A stretch of DNA of 32,182 nt from a virus: the IMG/VR virus record IMGVR_UViG_3300009008_000153, positions 1 through 32,182 of that record; one strand, 5' to 3'. The notes under the pieces were generated by a model. That model did not search any database and was not told the DNA's origin. It saw only the letters and a list, made by a program, of their open reading frames with translations. Positions 4,394-12,360 of the stretch are shown in pieces. Within the stretch, counting starts at the first letter, position 1. Every line of letters starts with the position of its first letter. Position numbers and translations under genes: made by a program.

Positions 4394-4422
4394 ATAATAT
4401 CTTATTTTTTATTCTGTGTCAA
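4394..4422 (-). promoter_or_regulatory. Sigma70 promoter for gp32-uvsX
   Basis: The minus strand carries TTGACA (4417-4422), exactly 17 nt, then TATTAT (4394-4399). This is a perfect -35 and a five-of-six -10 with optimal spacing. Transcription would start near 4387, just after the ParB-like gene ends at 4431. Confidence 0.85.
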
Positions 4423-4430
4423 CTATTATT

Positions 4431-5594
4431 TTATTCTAAAATTCCGCTAGAATTTTGCTTAAAGTGAAGCCCGGAGTCTGAAGGGTGGTTCAGTTGTTGG
4501 ACCCAAAAGCACTCCAAAATTTCCGGGAAATCTTTGTTTCTAAGTTTCGTATTTAAAGGATCGATTGTTTTTGAGACAAAATCTCTCCTTTGCTTATTGA
4601 GAGCCAAAATATTTGTATTTGGCGCATTGACTTTCATCAAAATCTTAACACCTTTTGTTGAACTCAAAGTGTTTGTCAAATACATCTCAAATAACTCCAG
4701 CGTGACTTTTTCATTAAGTTTGTTGCCGTTAGTTGAGACGTGAGTTATACAAGTATTATCACTTGGATCTACCCACTCAACGAAGCTCATCCTAGAAGGC
4801 TTAGTCTTGCCGGGTTTAACTCCGGAAGGCCAACCTATCGATGTAGCTGCGTGCGTCCAGTCAGAAAACTCAACTGGTCGAATGATTGACTGACCTTTCG
4901 AAGCCATCTTTAGAATCTTTGTTCTAGTTCCCTTGCTTCGAAACTGACCGGGATGTAGCCAATCCATAACAGCATTAAACGCACTCTCATCCTGATCAAG
5001 CCAGTTTCCTGTGGGGTTTAAGCCCTCAAAGGTTGGATCTTCGCGATAAAGCTGCTCGACTTGTATTGCTGCGCCCTGCATGTTATATGGGTTGTTTGGG
5101 GGTGGTGAGTTTGAACGAATCTTTGACACCAAGTCTTTAAAAGCAGTGTTTGTAGCCAGCTTATAAGAGCCGTCTTTTTGTTCAACATATGGCTTTGATA
5201 CTTTCAAGAACCACAACTTTTGACCAGGGTAAATTTCCATCAAAACAGGCAAGCGATTGTGACCTGTCTCTAAATTAAGTTGCTCACTTATATGGGGAAC
5301 GAATTTCAATCCCTCGGCCTCAATTAAGGGCTTTAATTGTTCGTTACAATAGTCTTCATCATATTCCTTATCTCTGACTTGTGATCTTTTTATCTGATTG
5401 GGTGAAAGTTCAACAAAGTCAACTATAAACTTTCGACATTTATCTCCATTTGCAGTCTCAAACTCAAGACTCTGAATTTGTTGAATATCCTCTCTTGGGT
5501 TCTGATATCCTTTTGCTACCAATTTCGCGATTGCTTGGTTCTCTTTTGTTTCCAAGATCGAAACCGGGGTGTTTTTTAAATTTACTGTGTTCAT
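4431..5594 (-). CDS. ParB/sulfiredoxin-fold domain protein
   Basis: A 387-aa protein. Residues 58-135 resemble the ParB N-terminal (ParB/Srx) fold: a VELSPNQI...QVRD start, a helix-rich segment, then the conserved ETGHNRLPVL, equivalent to the G-x-(H/N)-R box that binds nucleotide or phosphate in ParB-type CTPases and nucleases. The C-terminal 250 residues carry no motif I recognise. Similar phage proteins are usually annotated as ParB-like nucleases. The real activity (CTP switch, nuclease or regulator) cannot be told from sequence. The start at 5594 overlaps the preceding gene's stop as ATGA, implying translational coupling, and a sigma70 promoter lies inside that gene. The ribosome site itself is weak. 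Function is inferred only from the fold. Confidence 0.6.
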   Translation of the reverse strand: MNTVNLKNTPVSILETKENQAIAKLVAKGYQNPREDIQQIQSLEFETANGDKCRKFIVDFVELSPNQIKRSQVRDKEYDEDYCNEQLKPLIEAEGLKFVPHISEQLNLETGHNRLPVLMEIYPGQKLWFLKVSKPYVEQKDGSYKLATNTAFKDLVSKIRSNSPPPNNPYNMQGAAIQVEQLYREDPTFEGLNPTGNWLDQDESAFNAVMDWLHPGQFRSKGTRTKILKMASKGQSIIRPVEFSDWTHAATSIGWPSGVKPGKTKPSRMSFVEWVDPSDNTCITHVSTNGNKLNEKVTLELFEMYLTNTLSSTKGVKILMKVNAPNTNILALNKQRRDFVSKTIDPLNTKLRNKDFPEILECFWVQQLNHPSDSGLHFKQNSSGILE

Positions 5595-6085
5595 AATACT
5601 TTTATTCCATATTTTTTAATTTCTGATGTAGTAACATTTGCTGACAATCTGGGGTCTTTCTTGTTTAAGACTGTAGCAAAACTTTTCTTTAACTTTGGTA
5701 ACAGTATATCATATACTTGTTTTCCTGTCAACTTAAAAGATTCAGCCAATTCTCCTTTTTCAAAACGATTAAAGTAGTGTTCTGAGTACTTTAAAATCTT
5801 TTCTTCCTTCAGGTATTTGACTTGCTTTTCCCAAGTTGGTTGAACTGAGATTCCCGTATAAGATCCTTTCACTTTTTTATCAATCGTAGACTTGTACTCT
5901 ATCTCTTCTCCCCTTTTATTGAAGGCATCTGCGCCTGATAGCGTTGCCGCGACAGTATGTCCTAATGCGCAAGCGGCATAAATTTCTTTTGCTCTTGCAT
6001 ACGAAAAAGGATCTCCCCATTCGTTCTCTTCACAGAGATCTGCCATTTTTTTATACAACTTTGCGAACTTTTCTTCTGGACTCAT
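5591..6085 (-). CDS. Small PD-(D/E)xK nuclease candidate, possible restriction endonuclease
   Basis: A 164-aa protein beside a DNA methyltransferase. Residues 50-66 read SGADAFNKRGEEIEYKS, which offers D53, nine residues, then E63-Y-K65: the spacing of a PD-(D/E)xK catalytic core. It is followed by GSYTGISVQPTW and a lysine-rich helical C-terminal half with LPKLKK. I do not recognise a specific named restriction enzyme, and 164 aa is short for a type II enzyme, so a nuclease that works as a dimer, or a non-nuclease relative, are alternatives. The ATG at 6085 has an excellent GGAGGA ribosome site and its own sigma70 promoter embedded in the end of the methyltransferase gene. It is translationally coupled to the ParB-like gene. 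Confidence 0.5.
   Translation of the reverse strand: MSPEEKFAKLYKKMADLCEENEWGDPFSYARAKEIYAACALGHTVAATLSGADAFNKRGEEIEYKSTIDKKVKGSYTGISVQPTWEKQVKYLKEEKILKYSEHYFNRFEKGELAESFKLTGKQVYDILLPKLKKSFATVLNKKDPRLSANVTTSEIKKYGIKVL
5703..5731 (-). promoter_or_regulatory. Sigma70 promoter inside the nuclease candidate, reading into the ParB-like gene
   Basis: TTGACA (5726-5731), 17 nt, then TATACT (5703-5708) on the minus strand. The start would fall near 5696, about 100 nt upstream of the ParB-like ATG. It is the middle one of three promoters of the same design in 1.8 kb. Confidence 0.65.
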
Positions 6086-6110
6086 TGTTCCTCCAATTTT
6101 TTATATTATA

Positions 6111-6139
6111 ATAATATCAGGATTTGTTAATTCTGTCAA
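6111..6139 (-). promoter_or_regulatory. Sigma70 promoter for the nuclease candidate
   Basis: TTGACA (6134-6139), 17 nt, then TATTAT (6111-6116) on the minus strand. The -35 element lies within the last codons of the methyltransferase gene. The predicted start is near 6104, about 19 nt before the ATG at 6085, so it gives a tight leader containing GGAGGA. Confidence 0.85.
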
Positions 6140-6989
6140 GACTTTTTTCATAAAAATCTTTATCTACCTCGCAACCAACAAAACTACGACCGGATCTCTT
6201 TGCGGCGACGGCCGTTGTGGCTGCTCCCAAAAATGGATCCAGGACCAAATCACCCTCATTTGAGTGCTTTTTGATTAGTTCTTCAAAAAGAGGCAAGCTT
6301 TTTTGAGTTGGGTGAAATCGATTTTTACCGCCTTGAAGTGGAAATTCATAAACAGCATTATCATATTTAGAGTTAAAAGTTGGGGACCCCTTCTTGACAC
6401 CCATCAAAGCGATCTCTCTACAGTTTGTCAAATAATTTCTAGAACTATTCAATGGCTGTGGGTTTGTTTTAATCCATTCTATAAATCTATGCTGCTTAAA
6501 TTTGTTATTTTCTAAGATATCTCTCAAGTTTGTGATTTTCCAAATATCGAAAAAAATAATAGCTGTACCGGTAGGCTTCAAAACGCGATAAAATTCGGAT
6601 ACGAAATCATTCAAAATATCCAAACTGAATTGAGAGTCCCAGTCTCCATAATCAGTTGTTATTGCATATTTCTTTCCATAGATAGATCCATATTTTATAT
6701 AATCGGATTTCATCCTAGAAGTTGCTGCTGCTCTGTCCACAACATTGCTGCTTTCAAAAAACTTATTCAAATCATTTTTAGGATTTGAAATATAATCGTT
6801 CCATTGCTGCTCAGTTTTTGCTGGTGGGGTACCAGGTTGATCTTGTTTTTTAACGTGTTCCGCCCATTTGTGCATACCAGTAGTTCGAGATGTAATATAT
6901 GGAGGGTCCGTTAAGACTAGGTCCACAGAATTTGACTCGATGGTCTTAAGGAACTCTAGGCCCTCTTGGTTGAAAATTTTAATCGTCAC
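6117..6989 (-). CDS. Beta-class DNA methyltransferase (N6-adenine or N4-cytosine)
   Basis: A 290-aa S-adenosylmethionine-dependent amino-methyltransferase. The catalytic motif IV TDPPY is at residues 27-31 near the N-terminus. The cofactor-binding motif DPFLGAATT is at 251-259 near the C-terminus, preceded by FHPTQKS, as is common in this family. That order (catalytic, target recognition, cofactor) defines the beta class. Residues 35-110 and 170-220 would hold the target recognition region, so the target sequence cannot be predicted. The GTG start at 6989 has AAGG 8 nt upstream and overlaps the preceding gene by 11 nt. It is the last member of the long coupled run that starts in the tail genes. 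Next to a nuclease candidate it may be half of a restriction-modification pair, or it may protect phage DNA alone. Confidence 0.9.
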   Translation of the reverse strand: MTIKIFNQEGLEFLKTIESNSVDLVLTDPPYITSRTTGMHKWAEHVKKQDQPGTPPAKTEQQWNDYISNPKNDLNKFFESSNVVDRAAATSRMKSDYIKYGSIYGKKYAITTDYGDWDSQFSLDILNDFVSEFYRVLKPTGTAIIFFDIWKITNLRDILENNKFKQHRFIEWIKTNPQPLNSSRNYLTNCREIALMGVKKGSPTFNSKYDNAVYEFPLQGGKNRFHPTQKSLPLFEELIKKHSNEGDLVLDPFLGAATTAVAAKRSGRSFVGCEVDKDFYEKSLDRINKS

Positions 6990-7848
6990 TTTGGTTTCCT
7001 TGTTGGTTTTCTTCTTGTATCTTAGGGGAGAAGTATTCTACATAGATATAGTCTGCTTCATATTGTGTCGGGTAGATCCCGAATGAGACCTTTGTCTCAT
7101 CTGTAATTCTTGATTTTACTTTGTTCGTAATTGTTCGAAACAAGTTTTCTTCCGTTTTTAACTTTTCTTCGTTGATACCATAATAGTATACCACCTCCAC
7201 CTCTTGATTGCAAGGAAAAAACATTAAATCGTCATTCTCTAATGATCCCAGGCCGATAGTGGTGATTCTACAAGATTCCTTTGGTCGCTTGAACGTAGAC
7301 GTGATCGGTTTCGTGTTTTTGAACACATCTAACATGTAGTAAGTACTTGTAAATACATGGTTTATTTGATTATAGTAGTCAAAAACGTTCGTCGAGCCTG
7401 CTATCTCCTCCAGTGCGAGGTTTGATACAAGGCAGATCTTCTCGAACAAACCACTTCTTGCATAGTTCTGTAAAATGTTCCTAGTAGCGCGTTCAGCTAG
7501 CATCTTCTCTTCAGACAAGACCTCAATTTCGGGCGTAAAGTATACAATATCCATCTTTACTGATCTCTGATGTAGTGAATGCAGGGCGCGCAGGGTGATA
7601 CCTGCTGAATTTGATGCACCACAAAGAAACACTGTACAGCTTTTTTCGATCGTTCCGAGCCATTTCTCTAGCTTTTTCATGTCCATCGATTCATATTCTT
7701 CAGGTCCGTCTAGTTCAGGTAGATTGAAGTGGTATTTCGTTGTCTTCTGGTTTTCAGTACATATGGTGTACGGCCTGTATACCTTATGCTCTCCAAGTTG
7801 TCTCACAACATTACTACCAGCTGTACCTATGCCTAATATCGCTTTCAT
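6979..7848 (-). CDS. Divergent FtsZ/tubulin-superfamily-like protein
   Basis: A 289-aa protein opening with MKAILGIGTAGSNVV, which resembles the FtsZ start (GVGGAGGNAV) where the first nucleotide loop lies. FLCGASNSAGITLRAL (75-90) occupies the place of the tubulin signature GGGTGTG but is degenerate. CLVSNLALEEIAG (139-151) matches the FtsZ P-N-x-x-L segment, and VFDYYNQINHVFTSTYYMLD (155-174) fits the core helix H7. The C-terminal half (195-275) could be the activation domain, and the tail is Gln/Asp-rich. FtsZ/TubZ/PhuZ proteins are GTPases that polymerise. Whether this one still binds GTP is doubtful given the altered loop, and a generic Rossmann protein is the alternative. Both ends overlap neighbours (ATGA at 7845-7848; 11 nt with the methyltransferase), so it is co-translated with polymerase and methyltransferase. 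Confidence 0.55.
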   Translation of the reverse strand: MKAILGIGTAGSNVVRQLGEHKVYRPYTICTENQKTTKYHFNLPELDGPEEYESMDMKKLEKWLGTIEKSCTVFLCGASNSAGITLRALHSLHQRSVKMDIVYFTPEIEVLSEEKMLAERATRNILQNYARSGLFEKICLVSNLALEEIAGSTNVFDYYNQINHVFTSTYYMLDVFKNTKPITSTFKRPKESCRITTIGLGSLENDDLMFFPCNQEVEVVYYYGINEEKLKTEENLFRTITNKVKSRITDETKVSFGIYPTQYEADYIYVEYFSPKIQEENQQGNQSDD

Positions 7849-8975
7849 ATTTCTAGATCCTTTAAGTGACCGAAAGTTTTACCAATTTTACAAGAGCTTT
7901 TGAAATTACCCCACCGTGTTGACTCAAATTCTTGCTTAAGATCTTTGAGGAGTTTAGCATCTTCTTTACACATATCAATGATGACCGAATCATGAAGGGT
8001 AAACGCTACCCTTGATTTTGTACCTACGAGCATCTTCTGTATGTTGTAGCAACTTTCTATAACCTGATCTGAGGTTGTAGATTGTAACAGATAGTTCTGT
8101 GCCTTCCTATCCTCAACTTTGAGTCTCCTGCCAAACGGAGTGGTTAAAATCTCCTCATCGTAATCGTAAAACTCCGAAAAGATGTTTCGATCAAAAAAAC
8201 CATTAAACAGAGTATCTTGAGAAGAAGGGTTATAAAACCAGGCAAACAACCTTTCTTTGAACTTGGCACGTGAAATGCAGTTGTTAAAGATTCTGCCGTT
8301 CAGATATTCATGTAAATCCTGTTCCGGTTGGGCTTGACCCGATAAGGCCATCAACATCCTCACCTCTGCGGCGTTTAAGTCTAACTCAACAAAGAGATCA
8401 TTTGTTGGCCTTAGATCTGCTCTTTGTTCTTTCTTGAGAGTTAAAACAGGAACAGAGTCCCTTTTTGTTGTCAATCTACCAGTTGCGGATCCGAAAATAT
8501 CATAATTTACCCTCCTGCGATTCCCCTGATAAATAACGTCCTGAAAAGAAATGTTAGTCGTAAGCACGTGCGCCTTATGAAGTATGCTGTAATCTTCAGC
8601 CCTTGAGTTCACACTTGAGATGTTCTTTAAGCAATCGTCTTTCAGCTGAAACCACTTCAAAAGCTGATGCTGTGGCAAGAGATCAAAGAAGCATTCCTCC
8701 TGCAAGCTTATCTTGGCTGAAATTGCCGCCTTCTGGTGTGCCATGATCTTGCTCCTGTAGGTATCGAAAAGCTCCTGATCAGAGCAGAACCTCCCCAATT
8801 CATCACTCTTGATCAACAAATACAGGTATGTGTATTCCTCATCGTTTAACATGGGAGAGTGTTTCCAGGCGACGTTACAGTTCTCCATTATTTTCTCTAG
8901 GTCCTCGAACATGAAGGAGCCATTGTGGAATATTCCCGAACAATTGTCTTTTATATCAAGTGTTTGAAGGATCAT
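7845..8975 (-). CDS. Minimal family A DNA polymerase (polymerase domain only)
   Basis: A 376-aa protein with the palm/fingers motifs of DNA polymerase I in order. GSATGRLTTKRDSVPVL (162-178) matches the TGRLSS...PNLQ segment. Motif A is VELDLNAAEVRM (196-207) with catalytic D199. Motif B is RAKFKERLFAWFYNP (236-250) with R236, K240 and Y248. TPFGRRL (279-285) and AQNYLLQSTTSDQVIE (292-307) are also conserved. Motif C is TLHDSVIID (326-334) with catalytic D329, where the usual HDE is HDS. Both catalytic aspartates are present, so activity is plausible. There is no 3'-5' exonuclease domain, and the first 150 residues are too short for a normal thumb plus exonuclease. T4 itself uses a family B enzyme, gp43. 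It overlaps both neighbours by ATGA. Confidence 0.85.
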   Translation of the reverse strand: MILQTLDIKDNCSGIFHNGSFMFEDLEKIMENCNVAWKHSPMLNDEEYTYLYLLIKSDELGRFCSDQELFDTYRSKIMAHQKAAISAKISLQEECFFDLLPQHQLLKWFQLKDDCLKNISSVNSRAEDYSILHKAHVLTTNISFQDVIYQGNRRRVNYDIFGSATGRLTTKRDSVPVLTLKKEQRADLRPTNDLFVELDLNAAEVRMLMALSGQAQPEQDLHEYLNGRIFNNCISRAKFKERLFAWFYNPSSQDTLFNGFFDRNIFSEFYDYDEEILTTPFGRRLKVEDRKAQNYLLQSTTSDQVIESCYNIQKMLVGTKSRVAFTLHDSVIIDMCKEDAKLLKDLKQEFESTRWGNFKSSCKIGKTFGHLKDLEI

Positions 8976-10162
8976 CTGTAATCTTTCAGTGTTGTTTTCT
9001 CGTAGCTGTTGATGTTTCTATTCTCAAGCATTTCTCTGTATTTAGAGGAGGCCATCTTTTGGATTCTTCCCAAAACAGGAAGGAATTTATCTTTCCCTCT
9101 TTCTTCGTATCTTACACTATATGCGCGGTGATAGTCAAGCATTTTTTGAACTTCTAGATTATATTTCTTTAAGTCAATGTCAAGTTCTAGCATTCTGATT
9201 CTCAATAGCTCCCCTATGAAGCCCTCTGTTCGGGTACTTGGGGAGTGGCCAAAATCGGATAATGCCTCTCGTTGAACTTGCGCAATTGACTGTCCCGAGT
9301 AAAGCACAAACATCCTTGTTATTGTTTCAAAGATCGCGTGGTGGTCGTCAAATGCAGGCTTAGATCTATAAAACCTGTTCATGTAGTCCATATATGGTCG
9401 ACTTTCAGTTGATGTTGGTGATTCTACGTTCCTTATGTAACTTTGCATTTTTTCTGAATTTAGATCCGCATAAAGTCTCCACGGCAAGTTCTTATCTACT
9501 ATCATACCATGTTCTCTCGAAAAATCCAAGAAACATTTGAACGCAGGGTCCTCAAAAATCATTGATTTGTTCGTGTCCAGATTTTTTGGTAGCTTTGTGA
9601 GTTCTATCGTCAGCCCCGTAACGCCGATTGGGCAAAAACTGGACATCAGGAACCCAGACTTGGAAAGGGGCCTGCGTTCGCCACCCTGCAAACATATCTG
9701 AACCGCTCTGTTCGTAAATGTCTTAAAGTTGTGTTTTTGAGCATCTCTCGAAATTATTGGCACCACGAGAGATGAAACATATTGCACATAATCGCTATAG
9801 ACGTCATCAAAAGATGTATATGCGACGGATGGAGTCAGTCCATCCAGGAAAATCGGGTATCCTATGTTCGAATTTTGAACAATCAGTGCATACTCAGTTA
9901 CAAAATTATTGAAAGCTTGGGCCATAAAAGGGGACGTCTTCAGCTCGGGGGCCAAGGGGCTCAGATCTTGTAAGTTTTCAACCTGCTCGTCTTCCGGCAA
10001 ATATACTGGTTCGTATTTTTCATTTAATCTTCCGTAATAAGGATTTTCATACCAAGTGTCAAGAAAGTCATAACCCTCCACCCGGAAGTTCTCCTTATAA
10101 TTTTTTCTTTCTCTGTATGAGACGGTAGTTCCTGGATCTAGTCCTGCTTTAAAAATCGTCAT
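8972..10162 (-). CDS. Protein of unknown function between tail and polymerase genes
   Basis: A 396-aa protein I do not recognise. The start at ATG 10162 is preferred over the longer frame to 10240 because it makes an ATGA overlap with the stop of the 733-aa gene. The longer version would add an Arg-rich stretch encoded inside that gene. Visible features are an acidic, tyrosine-rich N-terminal part (residues 20-60), a possible beta-rich middle (115-205) and a helical, charged C-terminal third (290-396) containing YNLEVQKMLDYHRAYSVRY. There is no signal peptide, membrane segment or nucleotide-binding motif. Position suggests a virion or tail-assembly protein translated with the hub-type protein. 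Coupling to the polymerase on the other side leaves a replication-related role open. Confidence 0.8.
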   Translation of the reverse strand: MTIFKAGLDPGTTVSYRERKNYKENFRVEGYDFLDTWYENPYYGRLNEKYEPVYLPEDEQVENLQDLSPLAPELKTSPFMAQAFNNFVTEYALIVQNSNIGYPIFLDGLTPSVAYTSFDDVYSDYVQYVSSLVVPIISRDAQKHNFKTFTNRAVQICLQGGERRPLSKSGFLMSSFCPIGVTGLTIELTKLPKNLDTNKSMIFEDPAFKCFLDFSREHGMIVDKNLPWRLYADLNSEKMQSYIRNVESPTSTESRPYMDYMNRFYRSKPAFDDHHAIFETITRMFVLYSGQSIAQVQREALSDFGHSPSTRTEGFIGELLRIRMLELDIDLKKYNLEVQKMLDYHRAYSVRYEERGKDKFLPVLGRIQKMASSKYREMLENRNINSYEKTTLKDYR

Positions 10163-12360
10163 GATAAGACCCCTGGGGATTTCTTGTTCGATATATAACT
10201 GTCCAACTGTTGATACAACTCTTGCTCGTCTTCTGCCCACGAAACTTGAACACCATCTACCTTAGTGGTAAGCGCCCCTCCTTGATATGATATATTTACT
10301 GATTTTGCTTGGTAATAACCCCCCAGACCAATCTGAAACGCTGCCGATGAACGGTCGCGAGGATTACCCATTCCAACACTAGAGGGGTCTATAAAGAATA
10401 TTGATCCAGGTAAAAAGGCGGTATTCCCAATCATATCTAGGCTAGCATTGTAGGGCATCTTTAATTGATCATAGAGAGATGCCGCGGATACAATCAAGGC
10501 CTCTTTTCTGTATTTTATGTCCATCATCGAAAAGTCTATATTCTTAAGCACGCCCCTGTTGCGACCTAGATAAAAGTGGTAGATCCCATTCTTGAGATCT
10601 TGCAATCTAGAGCCTCTCCTGGATAATTTAGCGTCATCCGGGTGAGTGCCGTACATGATGAAATAATCAACTTCATCAGACTTCAAGCGCGCTGGTATTC
10701 TACTTAGTGTGCCCGGCAAATCGATTATGTCTATCTCTGGATCTGTTGTGCCCAGGGATGGGCCCGTGACTTCCATAGACTTAACCCCAACGGTTCCATG
10801 TAAAAACTTCGCGTTATCTAGGCCATGGGAAGAAAGGCTATTGGGAACGATCTTTGTTGCGCAATCATTCAAGAACTTTGCGAAGGAATAATTCTGTGTA
10901 TAGTTGTTCTCCACGTTGTTGACAAAGTAATTCTGAAAAAATTCTAAAGAAATTGGGATATCAGCTAGGTTGACGGATTTATACTCGCCGTCGGCAACTG
11001 ATATTAGAACGCTACCCAACAAGATTTTCATAGACTTCAAAGCTTCAATGTCTTTCTCTATCGATATGATTTCCTCCTTCTTGCTAGATGATTTACTTTT
11101 CTCTATATCTATTTTTGCGTCCTGCAACCTCTTGGTTGTGGTTTCGGAGACGACAGAAATCAAATCACCCAAGTAAAAGAATGAAACGCGATGTTCGTTC
11201 GCTAGTAGTTGAGCAGGGTCATCGGGGTCATCAACTGAAGATTTAGGAAGAGATGTCAATACATCAGCGGTGATGCTGGGTGTAATCTCTGAATTCTTTT
11301 TTCTGGATTCGTTATACCTCTTTTGATAATCATTAAAGACCTTTATGTCCTCTTCTTTCAGAGAATAATCATACATTAGCTTTTTTGTCTCTAATGTTGT
11401 CGTGAGTTCTTGGATCAGAGATCGATTTGTAGTTGATATTAAACTTTTAATCTCCTGAATTCGGTCTGTTTGCGTAGAATCTGGTTTTTTTGTTTTCTCT
11501 TTCAGTTCCGCCCTGTACTTAGCCAATCTAGTTATTTCCACTTTCGATGCCATTAAGTTATAAGTGTTTTCTTTCAATATTGAAAACATCCTACCAACAA
11601 ACTGAATATTGACGGTTGCGGCGCCGTTCTGCTCCACATTTATGTTGTGCTGGATATAAGTCAACCTCAAATGCAGCTTTGAGTTTTCTATCGTGCTAAT
11701 TTCCTCGTTTGTCATGAACTCTTTTGCATTATAAGGTACAGAATAACCCACATACGCCGCGATTTCGGCGCTTCGGGATTTCCTCACGCTCGACTCTGGA
11801 ACACTTTTGTCAGTTTTCGATTTTGTCTTCAGGTGGGTCTTGTCCTTGTAAATAGTGAAAAGCTCTGCGGTTTGAGCGTATCCCAAAGGAGTGTCGACAA
11901 AGAGGTTTTTTATATTGTCGGTATACAAGGTCATATTAAAGTTAAGCATTTTTTCAGCCGTGGCTGGATCTTTGCCTGTGTATTGTATATCGAAGTTTTG
12001 CACGGACACTGCCCTTGTGGTTCCAACCTCCAGAATTGAAGATCTTGACATTTCTTCTGCTGACTGTGGGAAATAGAAAGGCACATATTCTTTGTCTTTG
12101 ACCTTGTAAAATCTAAACTCTGGAACGATAGCTGTCAACTTGTGAGTTTCAAGATCTAAGAAATTCTTATAGATGTCAAAATCACGGTTATGTGTTATTC
12201 TGGAGGCAAAAGTACTTGGTTGATAGTTCCCTATTATCTTGTGAGCCAGGGCTGTCTCCTCAGATCTATTGAACTTCTCCAACTGTGCTTTGTTTTGCGG
12301 TTCTGTGTTTAGCACAAAGTTCCGCCATATTACATATGCCTGTTTACTGAAGCCTGCCAT
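10159..12360 (-). CDS. Large baseplate/hub-type structural protein
   Basis: A 733-aa protein whose start overlaps the LysM gene stop by one base (TAATG). Residues 20-270 look beta-rich. Residues 275-350 and 400-460 are strongly charged and helical (probable coiled coils, rich in Lys, Glu and Ser). Residues 470-720 are again beta-rich and contain FLPGSIFFIDPSSVGMGNP and GGYYQAKSVNISYQGG, reminiscent of the oligosaccharide-fold and barrel regions of hub proteins in contractile tails. It follows tape measure, cap-type and LysM-type genes, the position of baseplate genes in T4-like and P2-like phages. I do not see a lysozyme or peptidase motif. The specific T4 counterpart (gp27, gp5 or another) cannot be assigned with confidence. 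Confidence 0.6.
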   Translation of the reverse strand: MAGFSKQAYVIWRNFVLNTEPQNKAQLEKFNRSEETALAHKIIGNYQPSTFASRITHNRDFDIYKNFLDLETHKLTAIVPEFRFYKVKDKEYVPFYFPQSAEEMSRSSILEVGTTRAVSVQNFDIQYTGKDPATAEKMLNFNMTLYTDNIKNLFVDTPLGYAQTAELFTIYKDKTHLKTKSKTDKSVPESSVRKSRSAEIAAYVGYSVPYNAKEFMTNEEISTIENSKLHLRLTYIQHNINVEQNGAATVNIQFVGRMFSILKENTYNLMASKVEITRLAKYRAELKEKTKKPDSTQTDRIQEIKSLISTTNRSLIQELTTTLETKKLMYDYSLKEEDIKVFNDYQKRYNESRKKNSEITPSITADVLTSLPKSSVDDPDDPAQLLANEHRVSFFYLGDLISVVSETTTKRLQDAKIDIEKSKSSSKKEEIISIEKDIEALKSMKILLGSVLISVADGEYKSVNLADIPISLEFFQNYFVNNVENNYTQNYSFAKFLNDCATKIVPNSLSSHGLDNAKFLHGTVGVKSMEVTGPSLGTTDPEIDIIDLPGTLSRIPARLKSDEVDYFIMYGTHPDDAKLSRRGSRLQDLKNGIYHFYLGRNRGVLKNIDFSMMDIKYRKEALIVSAASLYDQLKMPYNASLDMIGNTAFLPGSIFFIDPSSVGMGNPRDRSSAAFQIGLGGYYQAKSVNISYQGGALTTKVDGVQVSWAEDEQELYQQLDSYISNKKSPGVLS

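Follow-up and report, generated by a model that had tools for sequence, protein, structure and literature searches.

A candidate restriction endonuclease beside a DNA methyltransferase

The window analysed here is the whole of a 32,182-base IMG/VR virus record (IMGVR_UViG_3300009008_000153), in which essentially all plausible genes lie on the minus strand. Those for structural proteins (head-tail connector, tail tube and baseplate) are followed by replication genes. This study concerns two genes on that strand. One is a 164 amino acid (aa) open reading frame at 5591..6085, encoding a candidate restriction endonuclease with a PvuII fold, with a Shine-Dalgarno sequence (GGAGG, 6090..6094) ahead of its ATG start; the other, at 6117..6989 and with a GTG start, encodes a 290 aa beta-class DNA methyltransferase of the family here termed mtW, predicted to act on the N6 position of adenine. 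Restriction enzymes are a textbook bacterial defence against phages; a preliminary description of this locus had proposed that here one serves the phage as a weapon.

The D-x9-E-x-K core noticed in that description comprises D53, E63 and K65 of the nuclease (codons at 5927..5929, 5897..5899 and 5891..5893 respectively), and all three residues are unvaried in the 151 distinct viral homologues, those of cyanophages P-SSM2, P-SSM5 and P-TIM68 among them, which argues against a chance occurrence of the motif. An AlphaFold model of the protein, built from an alignment of 55 viral homologues (A2), had a mean predicted local distance difference test score of 94.4 and contained a nuclease core. Foldseek returned PvuII as its first match in the PDB (E 2.9e-7, probability 1.00), with TM-scores of 0.65-0.73 among the best rows, whilst VIA-align matched the model to PvuII along its whole length (Z 14.5, 147 residues, root-mean-square deviation 3.1 Å). 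The BisI-type enzymes NhoI and Eco15I followed at Z about 10, with Holliday junction resolvases further down at Z 6-8.

Sequence comparisons, none of them significant alone, all agree with the predicted fold. The window protein matched PvuII in a phmmer search with E 0.65, D53, E63 and K65 pairing with D58, E68 and K70; PvuII was also the top PDB entry for the family profile (E 0.13), and the relative L031 matched the Pfam family Endonuc-PvuII (PF09225) with E 0.087 and 13.2 bits, against a gathering cut-off of 25. The kinship with PD-(D/E)xK families envisaged in the preliminary description was hence borne out by the predicted structure, and by the profile search in the ranking of PvuII but not in significance. 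The window protein itself had no Pfam match, and no useful match for the nuclease was obtained from Pfam, NCBIfam or PADLOC; in the PHROG libraries it matched phrog_35715, a family of unknown function.

The core fold seen in the model and in the PDB comparison, together with the catalytic D, E and K at the standard spacing in every homologue, places the protein in the PD-(D/E)XK superfamily, and the full-length correspondence associates its fold with the PvuII family. We interpret it as a predicted type II restriction endonuclease. It resembles R.PvuII in length (164 aa and 157 aa respectively), in fold from end to end and in the equal spacing of the catalytic triad, but shares only about 16-20% identity with that enzyme.

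Relatives of the nuclease were encoded on 303 viral stretches, most of the records used being genome fragments. Among 50,697 phage records, the only isolates with the family were P-SSM2, P-SSM5 and P-TIM68 (six records), in which the homologues are annotated as hypothetical or predicted proteins. Bacterial and archaeal genomes were scanned twice, yielding no relative the first time and a single 3.3 kb contig of a metagenome-assembled genome the second, and the plasmids searched contained none; unlike R.PvuII, therefore, the phage nuclease belongs to a family almost wholly confined to viruses in these collections. More divergent homologues in L119 and L158 (E 2e-23), each encoded 8 bases 3' of an mtW-type methyltransferase, suggest that the family is wider than sampled.

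Two alternative methyltransferase partners

The neighbouring gene had been described as a beta-class methyltransferase, and this was confirmed: its product matches the Pfam family N6_N4_Mtase (PF01555) above the cut-off (112 bits, E 4.8e-32), and its motifs follow the beta-class order, with DPPY (residues 28-31, codons at 6897..6908, invariant in alignment A3) preceding DPFLG. The closest solved structures are those of the 'DpnA' adenine methyltransferase (5hfj and 5hek, E 9e-35). Across the family, the nuclease has near it either a DPPY-type mtW protein of this kind or a different protein of about 180 aa, termed NPPF, which corresponds to phrog_799 ('DNA methyltransferase') and has weak Eco57I and EcoRI-methylase similarity. 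One or other accompanies 138 of the 151 distinct nucleases (39 mtW, 99 NPPF, none with both), leaving 13 with neither.

The NPPF gene overlaps that of the nuclease, or sits within 30 bases of it, in 90 of 99 cases. The position of mtW varies, being upstream or downstream and either adjacent or 1-2 kb distant, hence its linkage to the nuclease outlasts rearrangement. When the search was reversed and seeded on NPPF, a nuclease was present in 68 of 79 loci; in the phage records searched, the isolates with close NPPF homologues were precisely the same six records as those with the nuclease, and in P-SSM2 the two genes are 6.5 kb apart. Nuclease and methyltransferase are thus separate, linked and co-inherited genes, as in a type II restriction-modification (R-M) system.

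Other methyltransferases were considered as partners. The 5-methylcytosine family PF00145 was found in none of 28 records and PF02086 in four of them, and both were set aside. Both accepted partners fall in families of phage orphan methyltransferases (phrog_799, phrog_67 and the cyanophage SPPY methylase), but differ from these in being co-inherited with a nuclease.

Absence of CATG from phages without a partner

The loss of CATG first appeared in a search for avoided words, and was then tested on newly fetched loci and on controls sharing the neighbouring helicase; expected counts were taken from a second-order Markov model, and partner-less lineages were defined as clusters at 85% DNA identity over 1 kb. 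Seven lineages that encode the nuclease and neither partner have no CATG at all in 488 kb, where 1,763 would be expected, whilst the twelve words one mismatch from it occur at 0.96-1.37 of expectation. Nuclease-free relatives with the same neighbouring helicase contain 2067 copies of CATG against 2597 expected (0.80). It is the sole 4-mer with a count of zero in the partner-less carriers yet near normal in the controls: CCGG is also absent from the former (0 of 182 expected), but its depletion in the controls as well (35 of 237) means that this is not tied to the nuclease. On a quick FastTree tree of the helicase, CATG-free nuclease carriers interleave with CATG-rich, nuclease-free sisters, L006, L009 and L010 standing beside L357 and L358, and L280-L282 beside L340, L342, L345 and L349. 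Two long records, L294 (171.8 kb) and L347 (181.9 kb), have no match to PF01555 or NPPF, and a 100 kb sample of either is free of CATG.

Carriers with a methyltransferase retain the word, at 0.52 of expectation for mtW and 0.21 for NPPF. The window phage has 67 copies against 88 expected, as would be anticipated if its own methyltransferase protects them. Among the 13 partner-less sequences, eight are CATG-free and four (L032, L045, L319 and L331) keep CATG but come from contigs that end near the nuclease, hence were not treated as exceptions; the remaining one, L285, departs from this pattern. CAGCTG is not avoided by partner-less carriers (15 seen, 12 expected), which, on this reading of sequence composition, may set the enzyme apart from R.PvuII. 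The most economical target of the nuclease would be unmethylated CATG.

Some other candidates were set aside. Depletion of the words GAGCTC, CTCGAG and CCTNAGG in mtW phages concerns few expected sites and is not tied to nuclease state. The SPPY methylase is unlikely to be a CATG partner, since it occurs also in the CATG-free phages L006, L008 and L010. Whether or not they encode the nuclease, cyanophages and marine contigs in general are strongly depleted in AGCT and CCGG, and S-SSM4 has no TCGA (0 of 101 expected); these losses may reflect other restriction pressures.

Promoter and gene order

As had been noted previously, the nuclease has a sigma70-type promoter of its own (TTGACA-N17-TATTAT, 6111..6139 on the minus strand, scoring 11/12), the -35 box of which lies inside the 3' end of the methyltransferase gene. 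Of 59 distinct, diverged loci, about 15 have a site scoring 11-12/12 ahead of the nuclease, mostly 15-37 bases from its start and in phages with either partner, whilst shuffles of the same DNA attain such scores no more than 1% of the time. This recurrence supports early transcription of the nuclease by the host polymerase.

The methyltransferase gene was described as translationally joined to the tail operon. The overlap is there, its start overlapping the stop of a 289 aa gene (6979-7848, minus strand) that overlaps in turn a short gene for a DNA-polymerase-A-like protein of 376 aa (7845-8975, minus strand, PF00476 E 3.6e-7), which itself overlaps a 422 aa gene (8972-10240); the attribution to the tail holds at most in part, as the chain includes a polymerase-like gene. 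This bears on the timing proposed in the same description, namely that phage DNA is methylated late, during packaging, and the nuclease made early in the next host. In its favour are the separate promoter of the nuclease and the placing of the methyltransferase in a separate chain upstream in the window, and its upstream position in L015-L020. However, since that chain includes a DNA polymerase gene, late expression does not follow. Most relatives, moreover, have the methyltransferase gene directly 3' of the nuclease gene, with an overlap in many cases or a gap of a few bases, such that the two are probably co-expressed. We regard the inverted timing as unlikely.

A proposed phage restriction-modification module

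Computation thus provides the co-inheritance of the pair, the predicted PvuII fold with its invariant triad and the absence of CATG from partner-less lineages, as far as their sequence was analysed. We consider it highly probable that the genes form a virus-borne type II R-M module, the enzyme cutting unmethylated CATG and the phage being kept safe either by methylation or by purging of the site; to this extent the idea of a restriction weapon is supported. It survives all three of the refuting conditions set out with it, on the fold, on conservation of the triad and on the methyltransferase neighbour, and the CATG purge in partner-less phages speaks for it independently. In the window phage, the methyltransferase would methylate CATG, most likely at N6 of adenine, so that progeny DNA would be protected on arrival in the next host. 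There the nuclease, expressed from its host-type sigma70 promoter, would cut the DNA of the host and that of any unprotected competitor at intervals of a few hundred bases, which would fragment the host chromosome thoroughly. It is also likely that some lineages use the nuclease with no methyltransferase, telling self by a CATG-free genome, and that relatives switch between this state and two interchangeable methyltransferases; in the partner-less lineages, selection would have removed every CATG and left the methyltransferase unneeded.

The preliminary description drew a comparison with Chlorella viruses, which is a fair one. Chloroviruses encode adjacent methyltransferase and endonuclease genes and package the endonucleases, the proposed function of which is to break down the DNA of the host within minutes (PMC7019647). 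The likeness lies in a viral restriction enzyme beside a methyltransferase, with a suggested part in early host DNA degradation; the present case differs in that the virus is a phage rather than an algal virus, and in that the methyltransferase is swapped between two families or replaced by total loss of the site. On this precedent, the main role would most likely be early destruction of the host chromosome, for nucleotide recycling and shut-off, with exclusion of competitors as a second effect. The converse, in which co-infecting phage or plasmid DNA is the principal target and the breakdown of host DNA falls to other phage nucleases, is possible, although we think it rather doubtful. Any unmethylated CATG DNA would be attacked, and CATG is abundant in those marine phages examined that lack the nuclease; but host DNA would be cut too unless methylated at CATG, and the authors of the chlorovirus review, having once considered exclusion, now prefer rapid degradation of host DNA (PMC7019647).

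CATG might instead have been lost to a host restriction system, whilst the nuclease had another specificity. Avoidance of host restriction sites is known among phages, and several palindromes (AGCT, CCGG) are depleted irrespective of the nuclease. This coincidence is very improbable given that nuclease-positive lineages with no CATG have nuclease-free sisters with near normal counts, repeatedly, and that no other 4-mer behaves in this way. Still less credible are two other functions for the nuclease, which we judge about equally remote. The enzyme might be a modification-dependent one of the BisI type, attacking methylated host DNA: NhoI and Eco15I share its PvuII-like fold, but they require methylated cytosines, whereas the phage nuclease is paired with its own methyltransferase, the marks of which such an enzyme would attack. 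Moreover the better fit is to PvuII, an enzyme that cuts unmethylated DNA, and phages lacking a methyltransferase would not be expected to purge plain CATG. Alternatively, it might act like a Holliday junction resolvase in repair, recombination or packaging of phage DNA, as these have the same core fold and the window gene stands beside replication genes; however, the match to PvuII is far better and full-length, the position of the nuclease gene differs among phages, and neither its co-inheritance with methyltransferases nor the loss of CATG would be explained.

Several observations weigh against the restriction of CATG by this nuclease, or limit what can be drawn from it. In L285 the nuclease (10001-10501) has neither partner in its 18 kb contig, and yet CATG is kept (27 of 62 expected), although the contig encodes a further methyltransferase of PF01555 about 4 kb away. 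Conversely, NPPF loci in which no nuclease is visible (L168, L179, L186, L204, L215 and L227) differ from other nuclease-free phages in being poor in CATG (32 of 168), hence some of the depletion would have another cause, or the nuclease would lie outside the locus. The partner-less nucleases cluster in a small nuclease tree, so independent losses of the partner may have been few, perhaps a single one; that diverged lineages still have no CATG nevertheless implies continuing selection. The site is read from its own absence, and host breakdown and competitor exclusion appear equally compatible with the present results.

No account of this nuclease family, or of CATG purging in cyanophages, was found in the open-access literature, subscription papers being outside the search. 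The family is a large one of predicted phage-side restriction enzymes, encoded by many phages of oceans and lakes and yet annotated as 'hypothetical protein' in model cyanophages, and offers a direct, testable explanation of how host DNA is broken down in certain widespread aquatic infections. The total loss of CATG suggests that a virus can evade its own restriction enzyme in the absence of methylation; genome composition may then be read as a record of the virus's own weapon, and the purge makes a restriction site predictable from sequence alone.

Neighbouring genes

The polymerase-like gene matches C-terminal parts of its family only, and sits between structural-type genes and the methyltransferase. 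The adjacent 289 aa gene had no family matches, with homologues found only in L022, L034, L041 and near-identical contigs; its product has a glycine-rich N terminus (GIGTAGSNVVRQL) and a later GASNSAG motif, reminiscent of FtsZ/tubulin-like proteins. On the other side, a 387 aa gene (4431-5594, minus strand) overlaps the stop codon of the nuclease (ATGA) and encodes a ParB-like stretch (ETGHNRLPVL), with no family match; it was dropped as a third component of the system, being present among the tested loci only in near-identical copies of the window phage. A gene for a gp32-like single-stranded DNA-binding protein, 3' of the nuclease region, has, at 4422..4394, a promoter-like site of the type that precedes the nuclease.
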